NCBI GenBank assembly: GCA_902786285.1
Contig: CADABX010000006.1
Span: 1-54,064 of the forward strand
DNA: 54,064 nt
Reading direction: 5' to 3'
Origin: Oscillospiraceae bacterium
GTDB taxonomy: Bacteria > Bacillota > Clostridia > Oscillospirales > Acutalibacteraceae
In this document: piece after piece, positions 7,712 to 42,827 of the stretch
Layout: the number at the start of each line of letters is the position of its first letter
How positions within the stretch are numbered: position 1 is the stretch's first letter
The notes under the pieces: generated by a model
The model's input: only the letters and a program-made list of their open reading frames with translations
Databases searched by the model: none
Told to the model about the DNA's origin: nothing
Program-made: the position numbers and the translations under genes

Positions 7712-9721
7712 TTATGCTTTTTGGATCAGCAATACCATATCCGTATCGTCCGGCCGCGTGCCGGCAAACCAGGTGCCGATGGCGGAGGCGCGGAACGTGC
7801 CGCTGTCCACCGTGACGCCGTGGATCGGGTCAAACCACTGATAGTTGTATTTGCCGAAAGGTACAAGAGAGCCGACCGTGCCGGTCAGGATGCCGCCGTC
7901 CTTTTTGGTGTTGAGGCGTTCGGCGATCGACGGATCAGTGTAGGAATAGAAGTACAAGACCATTTCGGTGTTCTTTTTGTTGCTGGCGCAGTAGGCATAG
8001 ACGTTGGAACTCGGCACGAAGTAGGCCCAGTTGTTGAAGCGCGGAATCAGGTTATACCATTCCGTTTGCTCCATAAAGGTACGCATATAGCCCATCTGAT
8101 AGGAGCTCGGATATTCCAGCGCGTCCGGCCAGTCGGGCGCCTGCTTTTCTTCGGGCCGGATCAGATCCACGCCGTCGTCGGACGGGATATCCTTCTGGAA
8201 TCCGTTGTGATACGCCCAGGTCGGTTGTCCGCCCCAGGAGCAGCCGTAAAGACCGGTGAGATACGACGCCCACGCCTGCGCTCTTGCGCCGTAGTTTTTG
8301 GTCCACAGATAGCAGTACAACCCTTCAAAGTTGACCACCGGCTTGCCCTGTCCGTTATACCAATAGTCGCGTGCGGACATATAGTCGTCGCGCTTGGTCA
8401 GATGCGGATGCCACTGCGCGGCATACATCGTATGTGCGTCAACATGACGGAATGCGGACGGCTGTGCGCCGGGGTACCAGATCATGTGCACTTCGCCGGT
8501 GCCAAGGCCGTTGCCGTAGGCCACGGTGTCGCCGGTGCTCTCCTGATGCGCGGTCACCGGATGGGCATACGGGTCATGCTTGCCGAGGTATTCCGCCAGA
8601 TATTTATACGGATTGTTGACGGCGTTCCATTCGGAGTTTTCGTCCTGATACGGGTCGTTGTCACATTCCTGACCGAGCGTCCAGATCGTGGGATAGGCGC
8701 TGTAGCGCGCCACCCAGTAGCGGGCGAGCAGCTCGAGATAGGCCTTCGCTTCGTCCGACACGTCAGGCATGGTGACCTTCTTGGTGCCGAGCATCCCTTT
8801 GATTTTCGGTTCGGTCCAGCCGCCGTGGGCGCGGATGGTCGGCGCCATGCCGCCCAGCGGCCAGAAGTATTCGGTGTTGGCGTGGGTCAGACCGGCGTCG
8901 GCAATGATCTCGAAATATTTGTCGAAAATATGGAAGCCTTCCATATCGCTTTCGTCCACACCGTCAATCACGTTATACTTGACGGAGCCGGGCTGGCTTT
9001 GCCAGACGGTGAAGCCCTGCGACACACGCTTGTCGCAAATTGTCTTCACCATCTCATACGATTCGTCACCCAGCTGCCAGTGGGTGTCGCCGAGATAACA
9101 GAACGGAGTGCCGTCCTCATAGGTCAGGTATTTCTGTCCGTAGCGGGTGGTGACAAAGCCGTGCTTGTATATTTCAAGGTCGCCGCTGTATTCGGAGCAT
9201 TCCACCAGCGCAGTCCTGTCGTGGAGACCGGCGTTGTCGGCGTCGGAGCAGACAGTCCTGCACTGCCACGTACCGGCCGCCGGGCAGACGAAGCGAGCGC
9301 GCCAGGTATCGCCGCCGTCCCAGAAGCACGGGATAGTGTAAAGTCTGCCGTTTCCGAACAGCAGCATGTCGACCGTGACGCCGCCGAACGGATCGTTATA
9401 GGTTTTTTCGCTTTCAAAGGCGAGCTCGACCGGCCGCCACGTTTCGGCGGTCAGCGATTGTTCGGCGTCGCCGTCAAACAGCGCTTTGTCCGACGCCGTG
9501 CCGGCCCTGTCGCGCGGATCGGCTTTTTGGATCCGGCTCTCGTCGGTCAGCGTGACAAGCTTGAGCAACTGCCCGAGCACATTGGCAACCGCGCCGCCGG
9601 CGCGTTCAAAGACGAGCGTGGCGGTGCTCGGCGCGGTCGCTGTGTCCGCGGCAAACGCGCAGGGTGTCAGCACGCCAAACAGCAGAAGTGTGGATAAAAC
9701 GAGCGCAACGATTCTTTTCAT
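7712..9721 (-). CDS. Secreted DUF5060/DUF4038 glycosidase-like protein
   Basis: A 669-residue protein with a clear signal peptide (MKRIVALVLS...PCAFAA), started at 9721 after a GGAGG site. Residues about 85-165 match the DUF5060 beta sandwich (WRPVELAFE, YNDPFGG, FWDGGDTW, GTWQC). Residues about 180-530 match the DUF4038 TIM barrel (FCYLGDTHW, TIWTLGQECDND, VVNFEGLYCY), the fold of apiosidase-like GH140 and related enzymes; likely catalytic acids are the Glu of GQECD and of NFEGL. The C-terminal part ends in a beta sandwich. It heads an operon with an exported metallophosphoesterase and a GH43 gene. The frame extends upstream of 9721 but contains no better ribosome-binding site and would cross a terminator. 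Confidence 0.82.
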   Translation of the reverse strand: MKRIVALVLSTLLLFGVLTPCAFAADTATAPSTATLVFERAGGAVANVLGQLLKLVTLTDESRIQKADPRDRAGTASDKALFDGDAEQSLTAETWRPVELAFESEKTYNDPFGGVTVDMLLFGNGRLYTIPCFWDGGDTWRARFVCPAAGTWQCRTVCSDADNAGLHDRTALVECSEYSGDLEIYKHGFVTTRYGQKYLTYEDGTPFCYLGDTHWQLGDESYEMVKTICDKRVSQGFTVWQSQPGSVKYNVIDGVDESDMEGFHIFDKYFEIIADAGLTHANTEYFWPLGGMAPTIRAHGGWTEPKIKGMLGTKKVTMPDVSDEAKAYLELLARYWVARYSAYPTIWTLGQECDNDPYQDENSEWNAVNNPYKYLAEYLGKHDPYAHPVTAHQESTGDTVAYGNGLGTGEVHMIWYPGAQPSAFRHVDAHTMYAAQWHPHLTKRDDYMSARDYWYNGQGKPVVNFEGLYCYLWTKNYGARAQAWASYLTGLYGCSWGGQPTWAYHNGFQKDIPSDDGVDLIRPEEKQAPDWPDALEYPSSYQMGYMRTFMEQTEWYNLIPRFNNWAYFVPSSNVYAYCASNKKNTEMVLYFYSYTDPSIAERLNTKKDGGILTGTVGSLVPFGKYNYQWFDPIHGVTVDSGTFRASAIGTWFAGTRPDDTDMVLLIQKA

Positions 9722-16471: not shown

Positions 16472-18469
16472 ATGAAAAAGCAATCCATGTTTTCCCGGCT
16501 GTTTGCCGTGCTGATGGCGATCCTGATGGTCTGCACCGTGGTGCCGGCCGCGTCGTTCAGCTATGCTGCCGCCGCCAAAACAAGCACATCCGCAACCGCC
16601 GCCAAAAACATGTCCAAGGTCAAGGTGAGCTACACCAAAGAGCTTTCCTATACCGGCAAGGCCAGAAAGCCGAAAATCACGGTGACCTACGGCAAGACCA
16701 CACTCAAAAAGGGCACGGACTACACCGTGAAATACAAAAACAACACCGAGATCGGTGTTGCGCAAATCATCATCAAGGCCAAAGCGGGCTCCGGCTATAC
16801 CGGCTCCAAGACCGTGAAATTCAAGATCATTCCCGCAAAAGCCAAGAACCTGACTGCCAAAAAGGCCACGACCTCTGCCGTGAAGCTGACCTGGTCCGCC
16901 GTCAAAGGCGCCAAGGGCTATATCGTTTACCGCTATGACGCCAAGACCAAGACCTATACCAAGATCAAAGCGACCAAAAAGCTCGCACTGGCCGTGCGCA
17001 GTCTCGACGCTGCAACCCTGTATCGCTTTGCGGTACGCGCGTATGCGGTGGCCGGCAAAAAGTATTATGGCTTTTATTCCAAAGCCATCAAGGTGAAGAC
17101 GGCAGCGCAGACAACGCCGGTGGATCCGACGAACCCCGTCGAACCGACGAATCCGACAACGCCGACCGATCCGACAACCCCGACGAATCCGACCGATCCC
17201 ACAACCCCGACGAATCCGACCAACCCGACCGATCCCACAACGCCGACCAATCCGACAACGCCAACCGATCCGACAACCCCGACCAACCCGACGACCCCGA
17301 CCGTTGAAAAGCCGGCAGCCGTCACCGGTTTGCGGGCAACGATCAACGGCAGCGACGTCACGATCACATGGACGGCCGTTGCCGGCGCCGCGGGCTATGA
17401 AGTGGCGCAGTATCTGGGCGGCACAAGCTATCGGATGATGGCCGGCGTGGTCGGCACCTCTGCGACGATCAGGGATCTGGATAAAGATACCCTCTATCAG
17501 TACGCGATTCGCGCCTATGTGAAAAACGGCGACGAAAAGGTTTACAGCGATTATTCCGAGCTGGTTTCCGTCACGATCGTATCCGTCAAGCCCGTGGAGC
17601 CGACGGACATTGCCAAGGTCATCAATGTGAAGGCTGAAAAGAAAGACGCCGTTGTCACCCTGACCTGGTCCGCGGTCAACGCCGTCACAGGCTATGAGGT
17701 CGCAACGGTCGACGGCACGAAATATACGCCGGTTGCAACCGTGACCGCCGCTTCCGCAAGGCTCGACAAGCTGGAGCGCCACAAGCAGCTGCAGCTTGTG
17801 GTCCGCGCCTATGTGACGCAGGACGGCAAGAACGTCTACGGGCCGTATTCCGATCCCGTGTCTGCGATTGTCTATAACGCCGACTATTACGGCGCAGCGT
17901 TCCGCTCGGGCACCTTCCGTATGTCCATGATGATGGATATGGGCGACGGCAGCGGCGAACAGCTTGTCAGCATGGCATTCAAAAACGGCAATATGAACTT
18001 CTCGGCGACGATGCCGTTTGATACGATGAAAGTGCCGATCGAAATGCGTATGCTGAACAACGGCAAAAACGTCTATATGAAGCTCGGCAGCGGCGCGCTT
18101 GCCCAGTGGTTCGACGCCTCCGAACTGATGGAGGAGGGCGGCGAATTCGGCGACATGAGCAGTATGCTGGATATGGGCACCATGTTCTCCGGTATCTCGT
18201 TTGACACCACCGGAACGGTTGTCATGTCGACCGAAACCAGAGACGGCAAGACCTATGAAGTGGAAACGATCAAAAATGACGGCCAGGAAGTCAGAATTTA
18301 CACCCAGAACAACGAGCTGAAGATTCTGTATATTCAGGACGCCTACGGTGTGACCGAAACGAAGATCAGCAGCTTTTCCACCACTGTGAGCGACGAACTG
18401 TTCCAGGCGCCGAGCAATCCGCAAAACCTGAAGGAACTGATGGACTTTATGCAGATGCTCGCCGGGTAA
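16472..18469 (+). CDS. Secreted multi-domain protein: Ig-like, three FN3 domains, Pro/Thr linker, C-terminal lipoprotein-like domain
   Basis: A 665-residue exported protein. Signal peptide at residues 1-34 (MFSRLFAVLMAILMVCTVVPAASF...AAA). Residues about 45-125 form an Ig-like domain with ELSYTGKARKPKITVTYG, GTDYTVKYKNN and GSGYTG motifs. FN3 domains follow at about 127-210, 285-375 and 385-470. The first is separated from the second by a Thr/Pro/Asn/Asp repeat linker. The last about 180 residues (from AAFRSGTFRMSM) are methionine-rich beta structure resembling LolA/LppX-type lipid-binding folds. A shorter paralogue lies at 34248. A surface-binding or adhesion role is inferred; no anchoring motif is seen. 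Confidence 0.85.
   Translation: MKKQSMFSRLFAVLMAILMVCTVVPAASFSYAAAAKTSTSATAAKNMSKVKVSYTKELSYTGKARKPKITVTYGKTTLKKGTDYTVKYKNNTEIGVAQIIIKAKAGSGYTGSKTVKFKIIPAKAKNLTAKKATTSAVKLTWSAVKGAKGYIVYRYDAKTKTYTKIKATKKLALAVRSLDAATLYRFAVRAYAVAGKKYYGFYSKAIKVKTAAQTTPVDPTNPVEPTNPTTPTDPTTPTNPTDPTTPTNPTNPTDPTTPTNPTTPTDPTTPTNPTTPTVEKPAAVTGLRATINGSDVTITWTAVAGAAGYEVAQYLGGTSYRMMAGVVGTSATIRDLDKDTLYQYAIRAYVKNGDEKVYSDYSELVSVTIVSVKPVEPTDIAKVINVKAEKKDAVVTLTWSAVNAVTGYEVATVDGTKYTPVATVTAASARLDKLERHKQLQLVVRAYVTQDGKNVYGPYSDPVSAIVYNADYYGAAFRSGTFRMSMMMDMGDGSGEQLVSMAFKNGNMNFSATMPFDTMKVPIEMRMLNNGKNVYMKLGSGALAQWFDASELMEEGGEFGDMSSMLDMGTMFSGISFDTTGTVVMSTETRDGKTYEVETIKNDGQEVRIYTQNNELKILYIQDAYGVTETKISSFSTTVSDELFQAPSNPQNLKELMDFMQMLAG
17120..17303 (+). 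repeat. Coding repeat for a (T/N/D)P-T linker
   Basis: About twenty reiterations of a nine-base unit (CCGAC + AAT/GAT/ACA variants) encode PTNPT, PTDPT and PTTPT steps. This is a flexible, wall-spanning type of linker and likely length-variable between strains. Confidence 0.85.
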
Positions 18470-27980: not shown

Positions 27981-28057
27981 GCGCTGCTAGCTCAGCTGGA
28001 TAGAGTGTTTGGCTACGAACCAAAAGGTCAGGGGTTCGAGTCCCTTGCAGCGCGCCA
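27981..28057 (+). tRNA. tRNA-Arg (anticodon ACG)
   Basis: Acceptor arm GCGCTGC/GCAGCGC, anticodon stem TTTGG/CCAAA around loop CTACGAA, T arm AGGGG-TTCGAGT-CCCTT, discriminator G and encoded CCA (28055-28057). The ACG anticodon should be modified to ICG and read CGT, CGC and CGA. Partial copies of its 3' end lie downstream on both strands. Confidence 0.96.
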
Positions 28058-28120: not shown

Positions 28121-28140
28121 CGCTGCAGGGACTCGAACCC
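28121..28140 (-). repeat. Inverted partial copy of the tRNA-Arg(ACG) T arm and acceptor
   Basis: CGCTGCAGGGACTCGAACCC is the reverse complement of the tRNA 3' part (28032-28053) with one base missing. No tRNA 5' half adjoins it, so it is not a second gene. Confidence 0.75.
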
Positions 28141-28153
28141 GGAGCGGGTGAGG

Positions 28154-28222
28154 CGCGTGAAGAAAACAGTCCGGGGGACTGTTTTTAGCGCCGAAGTCCG
28201 AGCGCACCCCTGCGCGAGGACG
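28154..28222 (-). repeat. Palindromic intergenic element, inverted copy
   Basis: Read on the minus strand, TCCTCGCG is followed about 35 bases on by a perfect AAAACAGTCC-NNN-GGACTGTTTT palindrome (28163-28185) and CTT-ACGC. The same order of modules occurs on the plus strand after rpsI at 42419-42493 and 42571-42645. Confidence 0.7.
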
Positions 28223-28253
28223 GCAGACGCAAGGCGCAGCCGCGGCGGCTGCG

Positions 28254-28311
28254 TCCCTTGCAGCACGCCAGAGCCCGAGCCGTTCGAAAGAGCGGCTCGT
28301 TTCTTTTTGTG
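28254..28311 (+). repeat. Direct duplicate of the tRNA 3' end and its terminator
   Basis: TCCCTTGCAGC-CGCCA and the following hairpin ending AGCGGCTCGTTTCTTTTTGTG repeat 28041-28100 with a 213-base offset and a few changes. From here to the promoter at 28426 I see only short GC-rich inverted repeats and no gene. Confidence 0.78.
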
Positions 28312-41960: not shown

Positions 41961-42359
41961 ATGTATGAAACAACTCCGTTCTTCTACGGCACCGGCCGCA
42001 GAAAGAAATCCATCGCGCGCGTTCGTGTCTATGCCGGCACCGGCAAGATCACGATCAACGACAGAGACATCGACGACTACTTCGGTCTCGATACCCTCAA
42101 GCTCATCGTTCGTCAGCCCCTTAACGTGACCGAACTGAACGACAAGTTCGACATCGTCTGCCGCGTCACCGGCGGCGGCGTGACCGGTCAGGCCGGCGCC
42201 ATCCGCCACGGTCTTGCCCGCGCACTGCTGCAGTATGACGAATCCCTTCGCCCGGTACTCAAGAAGGCAGGCTTCCTGACCCGCGACCCGAGAATGAAGG
42301 AAAGAAAGAAATACGGTCTCAAAGGCGCTCGCCGTGCACCGCAGTTCAGCAAGAGATAA
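41961..42359 (+). CDS. rpsI: 30S ribosomal protein S9
   Basis: A 132-residue protein with [17 protein letters not shown] at the start, [20 protein letters not shown] in the middle and the conserved C-terminal [17 protein letters not shown], whose last Arg reaches the P-site tRNA anticodon. AGAGGGAGG precedes the ATG. The final six codons and the terminator are duplicated several times downstream. Confidence 0.98.
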
Positions 42360-42375
42360 CAATTTGCTATCTATC

Positions 42376-42408
42376 AACCTCGTCCGTTTGGGCGGGGTTG
42401 TTTCTTTT
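42376..42408 (+). terminator. Terminator of rplM-rpsI (first of three copies)
   Basis: AACCTCGTCC-GTTT-GGGCGGGGTT (two G-T pairs) followed by GTTTCTTTTCTTT. Near-identical copies start near 42529 and 42680. Confidence 0.85.
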
Positions 42409-42418
42409 CTTTGGCGAA

Positions 42419-42493
42419 CTGCGGGTCCTCGCGGCACAGCCGCTGCGGTCGCAGCTAAAAACAGTCCACCGGACTGTTTTCTTAACGCTGCGA
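42419..42493 (+). repeat. Palindromic intergenic element, copy A
   Basis: CTGCGGGTCCTCGCGGCA, then GCCGCTGCGG, then the perfect palindrome AAAACAGTCC-ACC-GGACTGTTTT (42458-42480) and CTTAACGCTGCGA. Confidence 0.82.
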
Positions 42494-42570
42494 CAGTTCT
42501 CCAAGAGATAACCTGTTGCCCTTTATCAACCTCGTCCGTTTGGGCGGGGTTGTTTCTTTTCTTTGGGAAA

Positions 42571-42645
42571 CTGCGGGTCCTCGCGGCATAGCCGCTGCGG
42601 TCGCAGCTAAAAACAGTCCACCGGACTGTTTTTTTTACGCTGCGA
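42571..42645 (+). repeat. Palindromic intergenic element, copy B
   Basis: Same modules as copy A, 152 bases on; palindrome at 42610-42632, followed by TTTTACGCTGCGA. Differs at only a few bases. Confidence 0.82.
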
Positions 42646-42719
42646 CAGTTCAGCAAGAGATAACAATTTGCTATCTACCAACCTCGTCCGTTTGGGCGGG
42701 GTTGTTTCTTTGCTTTGGA

Positions 42720-42783
42720 AGGGCCGAGGGCCAAGGGTAAAGGGCAAAGGGCCGAGGGTAAAGGGCAAAGGGCCGAGGGGCGG
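42720..42783 (+). repeat. Purine-rich tandem repeat
   Basis: Repeated AGGGCCGAGGG(T/C)AAAGGGCAA units. Similar AAGGGC-type runs lie at 46831-46860 and 53766-53795. Confidence 0.8.
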
Positions 42784-42827
42784 TAAAGCCTGACAGTTCA
42801 GCAAGAGACAACAATTTCTTCAAAATA

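Follow-up and report, generated by a model that had tools for sequence, protein, structure and literature searches.

Gene-less palindromic mini-elements behind rpsI and tRNA genes of gut Clostridia carry arms matched to the host gene end

Why does the end of rpsI recur four times behind the gene, and what are the palindromes that lie between the copies? The window analyzed here is the whole 54,064-nucleotide stretch of contig C6 from a 2.39-Mb, 67-contig Oscillospiraceae assembly. The last 18 bases of rpsI were found in it at spacings of 152, 152 and 148 bases (TRF period 152, score 649), and the first two units are 91% identical over 152 nt (Table 1). An earlier note had described this array, and the description was borne out: the CCTCGTCCGTTTGGGCGGGG terminator is present in gene-end copies 1-3 and absent from copy 4, a near-identical palindromic element lies between copies 1 and 2 and between copies 2 and 3, and a different, purine-rich repeat (TRF 42719-42779) separates copies 3 and 4. 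The Ser codon is AGC in the first and third gene-end copies (T1 and T3) and TCC in the second (T2), which fits gene-end exchange among the copies. An assembly artefact, which the note had asked to be checked, is unlikely, since similar units form arrays in other assemblies as well (L077, L046, L207). Chance was excluded as the origin of the 17-mer core copies in the window: with up to 2 mismatches 0.07 were expected and 3 were seen, a number reached in none of 100 shuffles. The third of them lies 3' of tRNA-Arg(ACG). Elsewhere in the window, at 17124-17303, there are tandem 9/18/36-base units (CCGACNAATC..), perhaps encoding a repetitive protein stretch.

The rpsI array is one case of a wider family at gene ends. 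The earlier note overlooked both the inverted copy of the gene end, on the left side of the element, and the copies linked to tRNA genes. The genome holds seven exact copies of ACAGTCC-NNN-GGACTGT, all 3' of a gene end: two behind rpsI and one each behind tRNA-Arg(ACG), tRNA-Ser(GGA), tRNA-Asn, tRNA-Gly(GCC) and tRNA-Leu(GAG). The core ACAGTCCNNNGGACTGT has the same seven exact matches and one with a single mismatch (L014), whose locus contains no tRNA. Copies elsewhere without duplicated gene ends had been named as evidence against the array's interpretation, and in this genome the other five exact copies all have duplicated tRNA ends. A long direct copy (12 to 26 nt) of the gene's own end was found 3' of 6 of the 29 tRNA genes detected by ARAGORN in the loci of this genome, namely the five with an exact palindrome and tRNA-Leu(CAG), whose element has no palindrome. 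An exact inverted copy of 9 to 16 nt accompanies the direct one at five of these six; at tRNA-Asn no more than 7 nt are exact in inverted orientation, a length that chance also gives, and its T' is left-shifted with mismatches. The remaining 23 tRNA genes showed direct runs of at most 11 and inverted runs of at most 10, and the longest of these, two direct runs of 11 and one inverted run of 10, derive from tRNAs nearby or from their element; 2 of the 29 genes had no more than 100 bases downstream. Across the genus the core was present in 24 of 34 genomes, and a reversed control pattern gave 0 matches in each. Palindrome repeats with flanks like GGGGATTCTCGCCTGTCGGCTC were also seen at L070-L073 and L037 (G033), where no gene-end copies were seen.

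Table 1. Positions of the rpsI array, of the tRNA-Arg(ACG) element and of the short-hairpin arrays (window coordinates unless a locus is named)
Feature	Position	Strand	Source
rpsI (ribosomal protein S9), host gene, 3' end = target	41961..42359	+	ORF, ortholog search
T1, functional rpsI 3' end (CAGTTCAGCAAGAGATAA)	42342..42359	+	repeat comparison
R1, terminator hairpin and T-run of unit 1	42375..42412	+	sequence, unit split
T' of unit 1, inverted rpsI end (TTGGCGAACTGCGG against CCGCAGTTCAGCAA, 86% complementary)	42411..42424	+	inverted pair
Body of unit 1: GC-rich hairpin, then stem GTCGCAGC..GCTGCGAC around the palindrome	42425..42493	+	fold of 8 rpsI-type elements
Palindrome of unit 1, AAAAACAGTCC-ACC-GGACTGTTTT	42457..42480	+	sequence
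Gene-end copy 2, Ser codon TCC, not AGC	42494..42511	+	repeat comparison
Unit 2 (T, R, T', body), 152 bp	42494..42645	+	repeat comparison
Palindrome of unit 2, AAAACAGTCC-ACC-GGACTGTTTT	42609..42632	+	sequence
Unit 3, 148 bp: T and R near those of unit 1; purine-rich repeat replaces T' and body	42646..42793	+	TRF, unit split
Gene-end copy 4, CAA at the stop codon position	42794..42811	+	repeat comparison
tRNA-Arg(ACG), second target in the window	27981..28057	+	tRNA search
T' of the tRNA-Arg element (AGGGACTCGAACCC)	28127..28140	+	inverted-copy search
Palindrome ACAGTCCGGGGGACTGT of the tRNA-Arg element, type C body	28166..28182	+	core search
T0, copy of the tRNA-Arg 3' end, 2 mismatches in 19	28252..28270	+	direct-copy search
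Short-hairpin arrays	L055 gene strand +210 to +400; L135 14026-14240; L059; L371		

In the relatives, the usual order on the tRNA strand is the gene end T1, the terminator R1, a spacer, the inverted gene-end copy T', the left part of the body, the palindrome, the right part of the body, in most cases a direct gene-end copy T0, and the flank. The unit T-R1-T'-body is about 110-200 bp long and gene-less. The palindrome loop starts with G on the tRNA strand, and at rpsI in the window it is ACC. Body types were labelled A, B, C, E, N and R in this analysis, and different types were found at the same tRNA. Within a type, the inner edge of T' and the start of T0 are near-constant relative to the T-loop (tail index 26/27 for A, 25/30 for B, 23/31 for C and 25-26/28 for E), with exceptions such as L018, L027 and L053. 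The gene end copied is that of the adjoining tRNA: within 3 mismatches, the own-tRNA end was present as T0 at 41 of 52 tRNA-linked sites (33 exact), compared with 58 of 2652 comparisons with ends of other isotypes. These 52 are the usable sites among 55, three having been dropped because fewer than 100 bases remained to their right. Some entries are chance palindromes from unrelated genomes, for example L191 and L232, and such palindromes account for some of the 11 sites with no T0 within 3 mismatches. The fit of T' varies: it is poor in L018 and L027, and in L035, which is the cleanest insertion, it extends over only 7 nt. T' also runs beyond x, the putative insertion point inside the gene end, and there matches T1 and not the T0 side. 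A general role of the palindrome as a plain bidirectional terminator was rejected because the stem of type A bodies is not flanked by a T-run. Likewise, a long palindrome formed by T' and the distal terminator R0 (a hairpin-capped end) was rejected because R1 and R0 have the same orientation where they are alike, and a retroviral-type primer site because T' stops short of CCA.

Empty and filled sites could be compared among congeners, in which the presence of elements differs. A tRNA-Gly(GCC) with a tRNA-Cys within the 60 bases after it was matched in 13 of 34 genomes (14 loci). At 11 of these loci the tRNA-Gly end is followed directly by tRNA-Cys with no unit, the upstream part of the empty locus being cut by a contig end in L300 and L306, and an element is present at the other three (L302, L303, L305). 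The L305 insertion is a clean 122-bp T-R1-T'-body unit that leaves the tRNA whole. Its distal flank (agttaatatggtacc) matches the empty locus L297 (gttaaatatggtacc) and its proximal spacer is unrelated, as expected for insertion at x. Similarly, in L323/L069 the usual tRNA-Leu(GAG) terminator is distal and another terminator is proximal. A T copy was found at 11 of 29 tRNA-Arg(ACG) loci and at 2 of 28 tRNA-Leu(GAG) loci, with the palindrome only at 2 more; the empty calls at these loci hide a few degenerate elements, such as L318, L350 and L366, in which T' is visible, and three of the Leu loci had less than 50 bases downstream. At L006/L303 (G000:C37 ~9123-9153), T0 abuts a tRNA-Cys(GCA) that is missing its first four bases (GGTA) compared with relatives, which is either a true deletion via the shared CCA or an assembly error.

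Both T' and T0 are present at 47 sites. At 21 of them R1 resembles R0, and at 26 the comparison of the two scored low, with L109, L005 and L213 borderline within this group. Since the two are not clearly alike in 26 of 47 sites, R1 often seems to have been brought in. Eleven of the 21 alike sites continue into a next T' (one a remnant). At the other 10, which are single insertions, the similarity stops -1 to +6 nt from the end of the T-run in 10 of 10 cases, not all of them independent since L003/L348 and L362/L368 are orthologs. The earlier note had offered insertion with a long target duplication as one of two origins, and this option comes close to what the comparison revealed. It is not a classical fixed-length target-site duplication, because the left end is near-constant for each body type and the similarity stops at the terminator T-run. 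The idea that each insertion leaves a whole gene end, mostly with a terminator, was supported.

The arms are predicted to pair. A shared fold was predicted for 20 type A elements, which come from viral contigs, from this genus and from other named genomes; it has a T':T0 stem, a GCGG:CCGC stem and a palindrome stem, and double changes occur at 9 of the 25 predicted pairs. The named structure has 93.7% of cells paired, compared with 86.4 ± 0.7% when shuffled and at most 39.0% when slid, and its covariation score of 0.252 exceeded the shuffled value of 0.104 ± 0.011 (0 of 500). Two of the five measures were not above the shuffles: pairs with double changes numbered 8 compared with 6.1 (47 of 500), and pair types 15 compared with 16.0 (430 of 500). 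In the T':T0 helix, 86.3% of cells are paired and 6 of 11 pairs have double changes, whereas compensating changes were seen at 2 of 9 pairs of the palindrome helix, 7 being invariant. Since target copying would give the same covariation, it is no proof of selection for the stem. The 8 rpsI-type elements also fold, with double changes at 4 of 31 pairs, and in 2 of the 8 the palindrome is altered on both sides (ACAGTCC to TGCTCC).

The rpsI-end arrays differ between species. Their terminator classes run a, b, a in G027, whose RpsI protein is 99% identical, then a, b, a and a remnant on a G008 contig (L046) that is not joined to the rpsI contig, and b, b, b in this genome. The spacers track species and not terminator class, and the pattern points to exchange and homogenisation among the repeats. 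Thirteen sites have a clear type A body together with T0; among them, bodies at different tRNAs of the same genome have a mean distance of 0.09 (0.11, 0.04 and 0.11; 3 pairs), bodies at one tRNA across genomes 0.36 (6 pairs), and bodies sharing neither 0.28 (69 pairs). This likeness within genomes may reflect movement of the body between tRNAs or gene conversion. In G012 and G019 (L362, L364), R1 and R0 differ at the same place and the terminator loop is genome-specific, which suggests homogenisation. In two relatives rpsI is split over contigs (L102/L105 in G001, L099/L104 in G026), as might be expected if gene-end repeats break assemblies.

We thus observed a recurrent layout, T' and T0 matched to their target, empty and filled alleles, tandem arrays and paired stems. 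Our favored reading, held tentatively and at a little less than even confidence, is that the family consists of gene-less mini-elements which insert site-specifically by a tyrosine-recombinase-type exchange at a folded T':T site. T' and T would fold into a stem with the body as its loop, mimicking the core of the gene end much as the CTX phage hairpin site or integron attC does, and an enzyme of the tyrosine-recombinase type would act in trans by conservative site-specific recombination at x, a near-fixed point in the tRNA T-loop or the rpsI tail. The host gene would be left with a complete 3' end (T1), in most cases followed by a terminator, and the end that was displaced would persist as T0 ahead of the native flank. 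Tandem amplification would follow insertion, with changes in copy number and homogenisation through recombination between direct repeats. Recombination at x explains the clean insertions, the foreign R1, the native R0, the kept gene ends and the arrays. It does not explain how the T' and T of a body come to match a new tRNA. The uneven fit of T', its reach past x, the sites with no T0, the two structure measures that did not exceed the shuffles and the likeness of bodies within genomes also count against this reading. In favor of recombination, we counted the presence of elements with an integrase at the same gene ends. In L151, a 6-kb element with a 377-aa tyrosine integrase and a T copy lies between rpsI and the mini-element, and we would guess it to be IME-like. 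Phage-type integrases end beside a 3' part of tRNA-Met in L155 (a viral contig) and L207 (a Clostridia MAG), followed by one mini-element in the former and two in the latter.

The right edge at the T-run fits the 3' end of an RNA at least as well as it fits recombination. In an RNA-templated insertion, the 3' part of an RNA, either a mature tRNA ending at CCA or a primary transcript ending at the terminator, would be copied by a reverse transcriptase together with body RNA, and pairing of T' with the T-arm would pick the target. The edge of the duplication at the T-run in all 10 single sites whose terminators are alike (fewer than 10 independent events, since two or more ortholog pairs are included), the edge at CCA in the tRNA-Gly/Cys case, the complementarity of T' to the T-arm across x and the predicted hairpins of the body agree with this route. 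We nevertheless regard it as unlikely: terminators may diverge straight after the T-run in any case, R1 is not clearly like R0 in more than half of the sites, and only tRNA and 5S families reached the Rfam gathering score in the window and five loci. At the array alone nothing was above that score, and a low-threshold search gave five weak matches, the lowest E-value being for RF02604 (19.7 bits against a gathering score of 137). It is less probable still that the units are CIME-like remnants, that is, decayed integrative elements which keep attL and attR and are moved passively by the integrases of IMEs or prophages using the same att sites. The mini-elements do lie just distal to integrase-bearing elements at the same gene ends, and accretion CIMEs at gene ends and Tyr-integrase IMEs at the rpsI 3' end are described in the portion of PMC5704250 available to us. 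That portion does not describe such an inverted gene-end copy, independent decay would not be expected to yield a small set of structured bodies that recur, with near-fixed edges, at many different targets, and the right end of the L155 element starts at the tRNA-Met anticodon loop, not at x.

Equally improbable to us is an old set of elements, fixed beside many tRNA genes and rpsI, kept alike by gene conversion and now immobile. Bodies are indeed similar within genomes and the terminators of L362 and L364 suggest homogenisation, but the presence of elements differs among congeners and the same tRNA may carry different body types. The other origin offered by the earlier note, local duplication of the gene end by slippage or unequal recombination at the palindrome, seems very improbable as a full account. 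Tandem units of near-equal length with spacers alike within a genome are in its favor. It cannot yield, at many genes with similar bodies, a T' and a T that fit each target, and empty alleles share the distal flank of the filled allele. Slippage cannot have made the first copy, because like bodies stand beside unrelated gene ends, each copied in both orientations, and it is thus contradicted for the first insertion. For copy number it is plausible: how many units an array contains is probably governed by slippage or unequal recombination, given that the terminator classes alternate and that the spacers of one genome resemble each other.

A partner enzyme for the favored exchange was sought near the elements. 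Clustering of 687 ORFs from 102 loci (L152-L253), a set that left out 40 further loci of the GTDB contig scan, found no dedicated linked recombinase at the sites. The commonest clusters, ABC-transporter ATPases (12 loci, at varied distances) and HTH regulators (5 loci), were taken as chance neighbours, and the sole recurrent recombinases were phage-type integrases at 4 loci, 162-172 nt from the palindrome. The distribution of PF00589 and PF01797 over the 34 genomes revealed no partner. Eight PF00589 regions were judged by eye, with Pfam on one of them, to be Xer-like or phage-like, and no integron integrase was identified among the matches judged in this way. G020, G021 and G032, which are incomplete MAGs, have sites and a single PF00589 match each, and we read these proteins as Xer-like.

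In some loci mini-element ends are located 1.1 to 8.6 kb behind a tRNA with genes in between (L055, L135, L137, L140), including an SF0329 protein in L055, a 653-aa protein in L135 and a VWA protein in L137. The SF0329 segment stands behind tRNA-Arg(CCG) in L055/L143, and L134 carries the T of a related tRNA-Arg variant. It is conceivable, if rather doubtful, that gut Clostridia have an integron-like system in which tRNA genes and rpsI serve as attI-like entry points and re-matched hairpin stems admit gene-less and gene-bearing cassettes, each entry bringing a new gene end. The SF0329 segment, the 653-aa gene and the VWA gene would be its uncertain gene-bearing candidates. Since no T copy was seen at the right end of the cargo in L134, L135, L137 and L055, these segments are not claimed as cassettes.

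The mini-elements resemble several known systems in part. As with integron cassettes, the units are short, form tandem arrays behind a fixed target, may fold into a site of inverted arm, variable loop and direct arm, and in some cases cap gene-bearing segments (L055, L135, L137). Pairing of the arms around a variable loop, as in attC, was found in the T':T0 helix for type A only (20 sequences), where target copying would look the same. Integron cassettes are bounded by a GTTRRRY box; in contrast, the mini-element boundaries lie inside or behind the T-loop GTTCRA, depending on type, rpsI and the T-loops of tRNA genes serve as targets, the arms are matched to the gene targeted and most units are gene-less. 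The attP of CTX phage has arms at a spacing of similar size and occurs in tandem arrays. Like its single-stranded form, which exploits Xer, the mini-elements have inverted core-like arms around a body of similar size, and this arrangement could fold to give a recombination site; they too form arrays. They differ in matching the host gene end and in carrying no phage genes in the unit. The CTX phage stem mimics double-stranded DNA, according to the part of PMC4792948 available to us, whereas T' and the T0 side are unpaired left of x. With CIMEs and IMEs at tRNA and rpsI 3' ends the mini-elements share flanking direct gene-end repeats, a preserved gene end and tandem accretion at the same site, and like CIMEs they have no integrase; they are set apart by their gene-less length, too short for a gene, their inverted gene-end copy and hairpin bodies that recur at many targets. 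Like REP/BIME and MITE sequences they are small, palindromic, non-coding intergenic repeats, but they have a defined position and orientation behind tRNA genes and target-derived ends. Unlike in REP/RAYT systems, PF01797 (Y1 transposase), present in 21 of the 34 genomes, is missing from 7 of the 24 site-positive ones, these MAGs being incomplete. Unlike in MITEs, the ends follow the target and the duplicated length varies with the terminator, with no fixed TIRs or TSD length. Group IIC introns are located just behind terminators, as the mini-elements are, whereas the units are too short for an intron or RT and gave no group II Rfam match at the gathering level.

The elements look like an undescribed route by which DNA enters 3' of essential genes and spares them: a unit only 110-200 bp long recognises many essential gene ends, has arms matched to each and leaves the gene end whole. 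If the enzyme were found, it would show how a site-specific system changes its target, which is thought to be rare for ordinary integrases, and it may give a family of safe-harbour insertion sites. The elements account for the duplicated tRNA ends in these gut Clostridia and, as many copies are near contig ends, perhaps for some contig breaks. Four strings of the core had no match in a text search of 5.39 million papers. No description of tRNA-linked mini-elements, integron-like tRNA systems or folded attP at tRNA genes was found by title and start of abstract, which is not proof that they are unpublished.

Beyond the genus, a GTDB contig scan for ACAGTCCGGTGGACTGT gave at least 120 matches, mostly from Oscillospiraceae, Ruminococcus and Clostridia MAGs among the matches listed (80 titles), and a viral scan gave 22 stretches. 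Here the association with duplicated gene ends, complete for the exact copies in the genome of the window, is partial: a T copy (up to 3 mismatches) of the upstream same-strand tRNA was found at 11 of 105 sites in 102 loci, and in many repeats the same core stands with no tRNA end beside it. T' and T are plain in L153, L155, L160, L163, L207 and L228, with no whole tRNA in the stretch. The ACAGTCC-GGT-GGACTGT core also occurs in other Ruminococcus and Clostridia repeat families that no tRNA adjoins (L174, L177, L181, L184, L189, L201, L253 and others); in L189, for example, GGGGTGAATTTCAAA precedes it and TTTGAAAGAGGGGACG follows. The hairpin is thus a module common to several repeat families, with gene-end matching in only part of them. 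At several loci, short-hairpin arrays (TATGTAATC.., TATATCATC.., GATATCCGTTCC..) follow the tRNA end or T0, and they have the look of another type of element that occupies the same positions.
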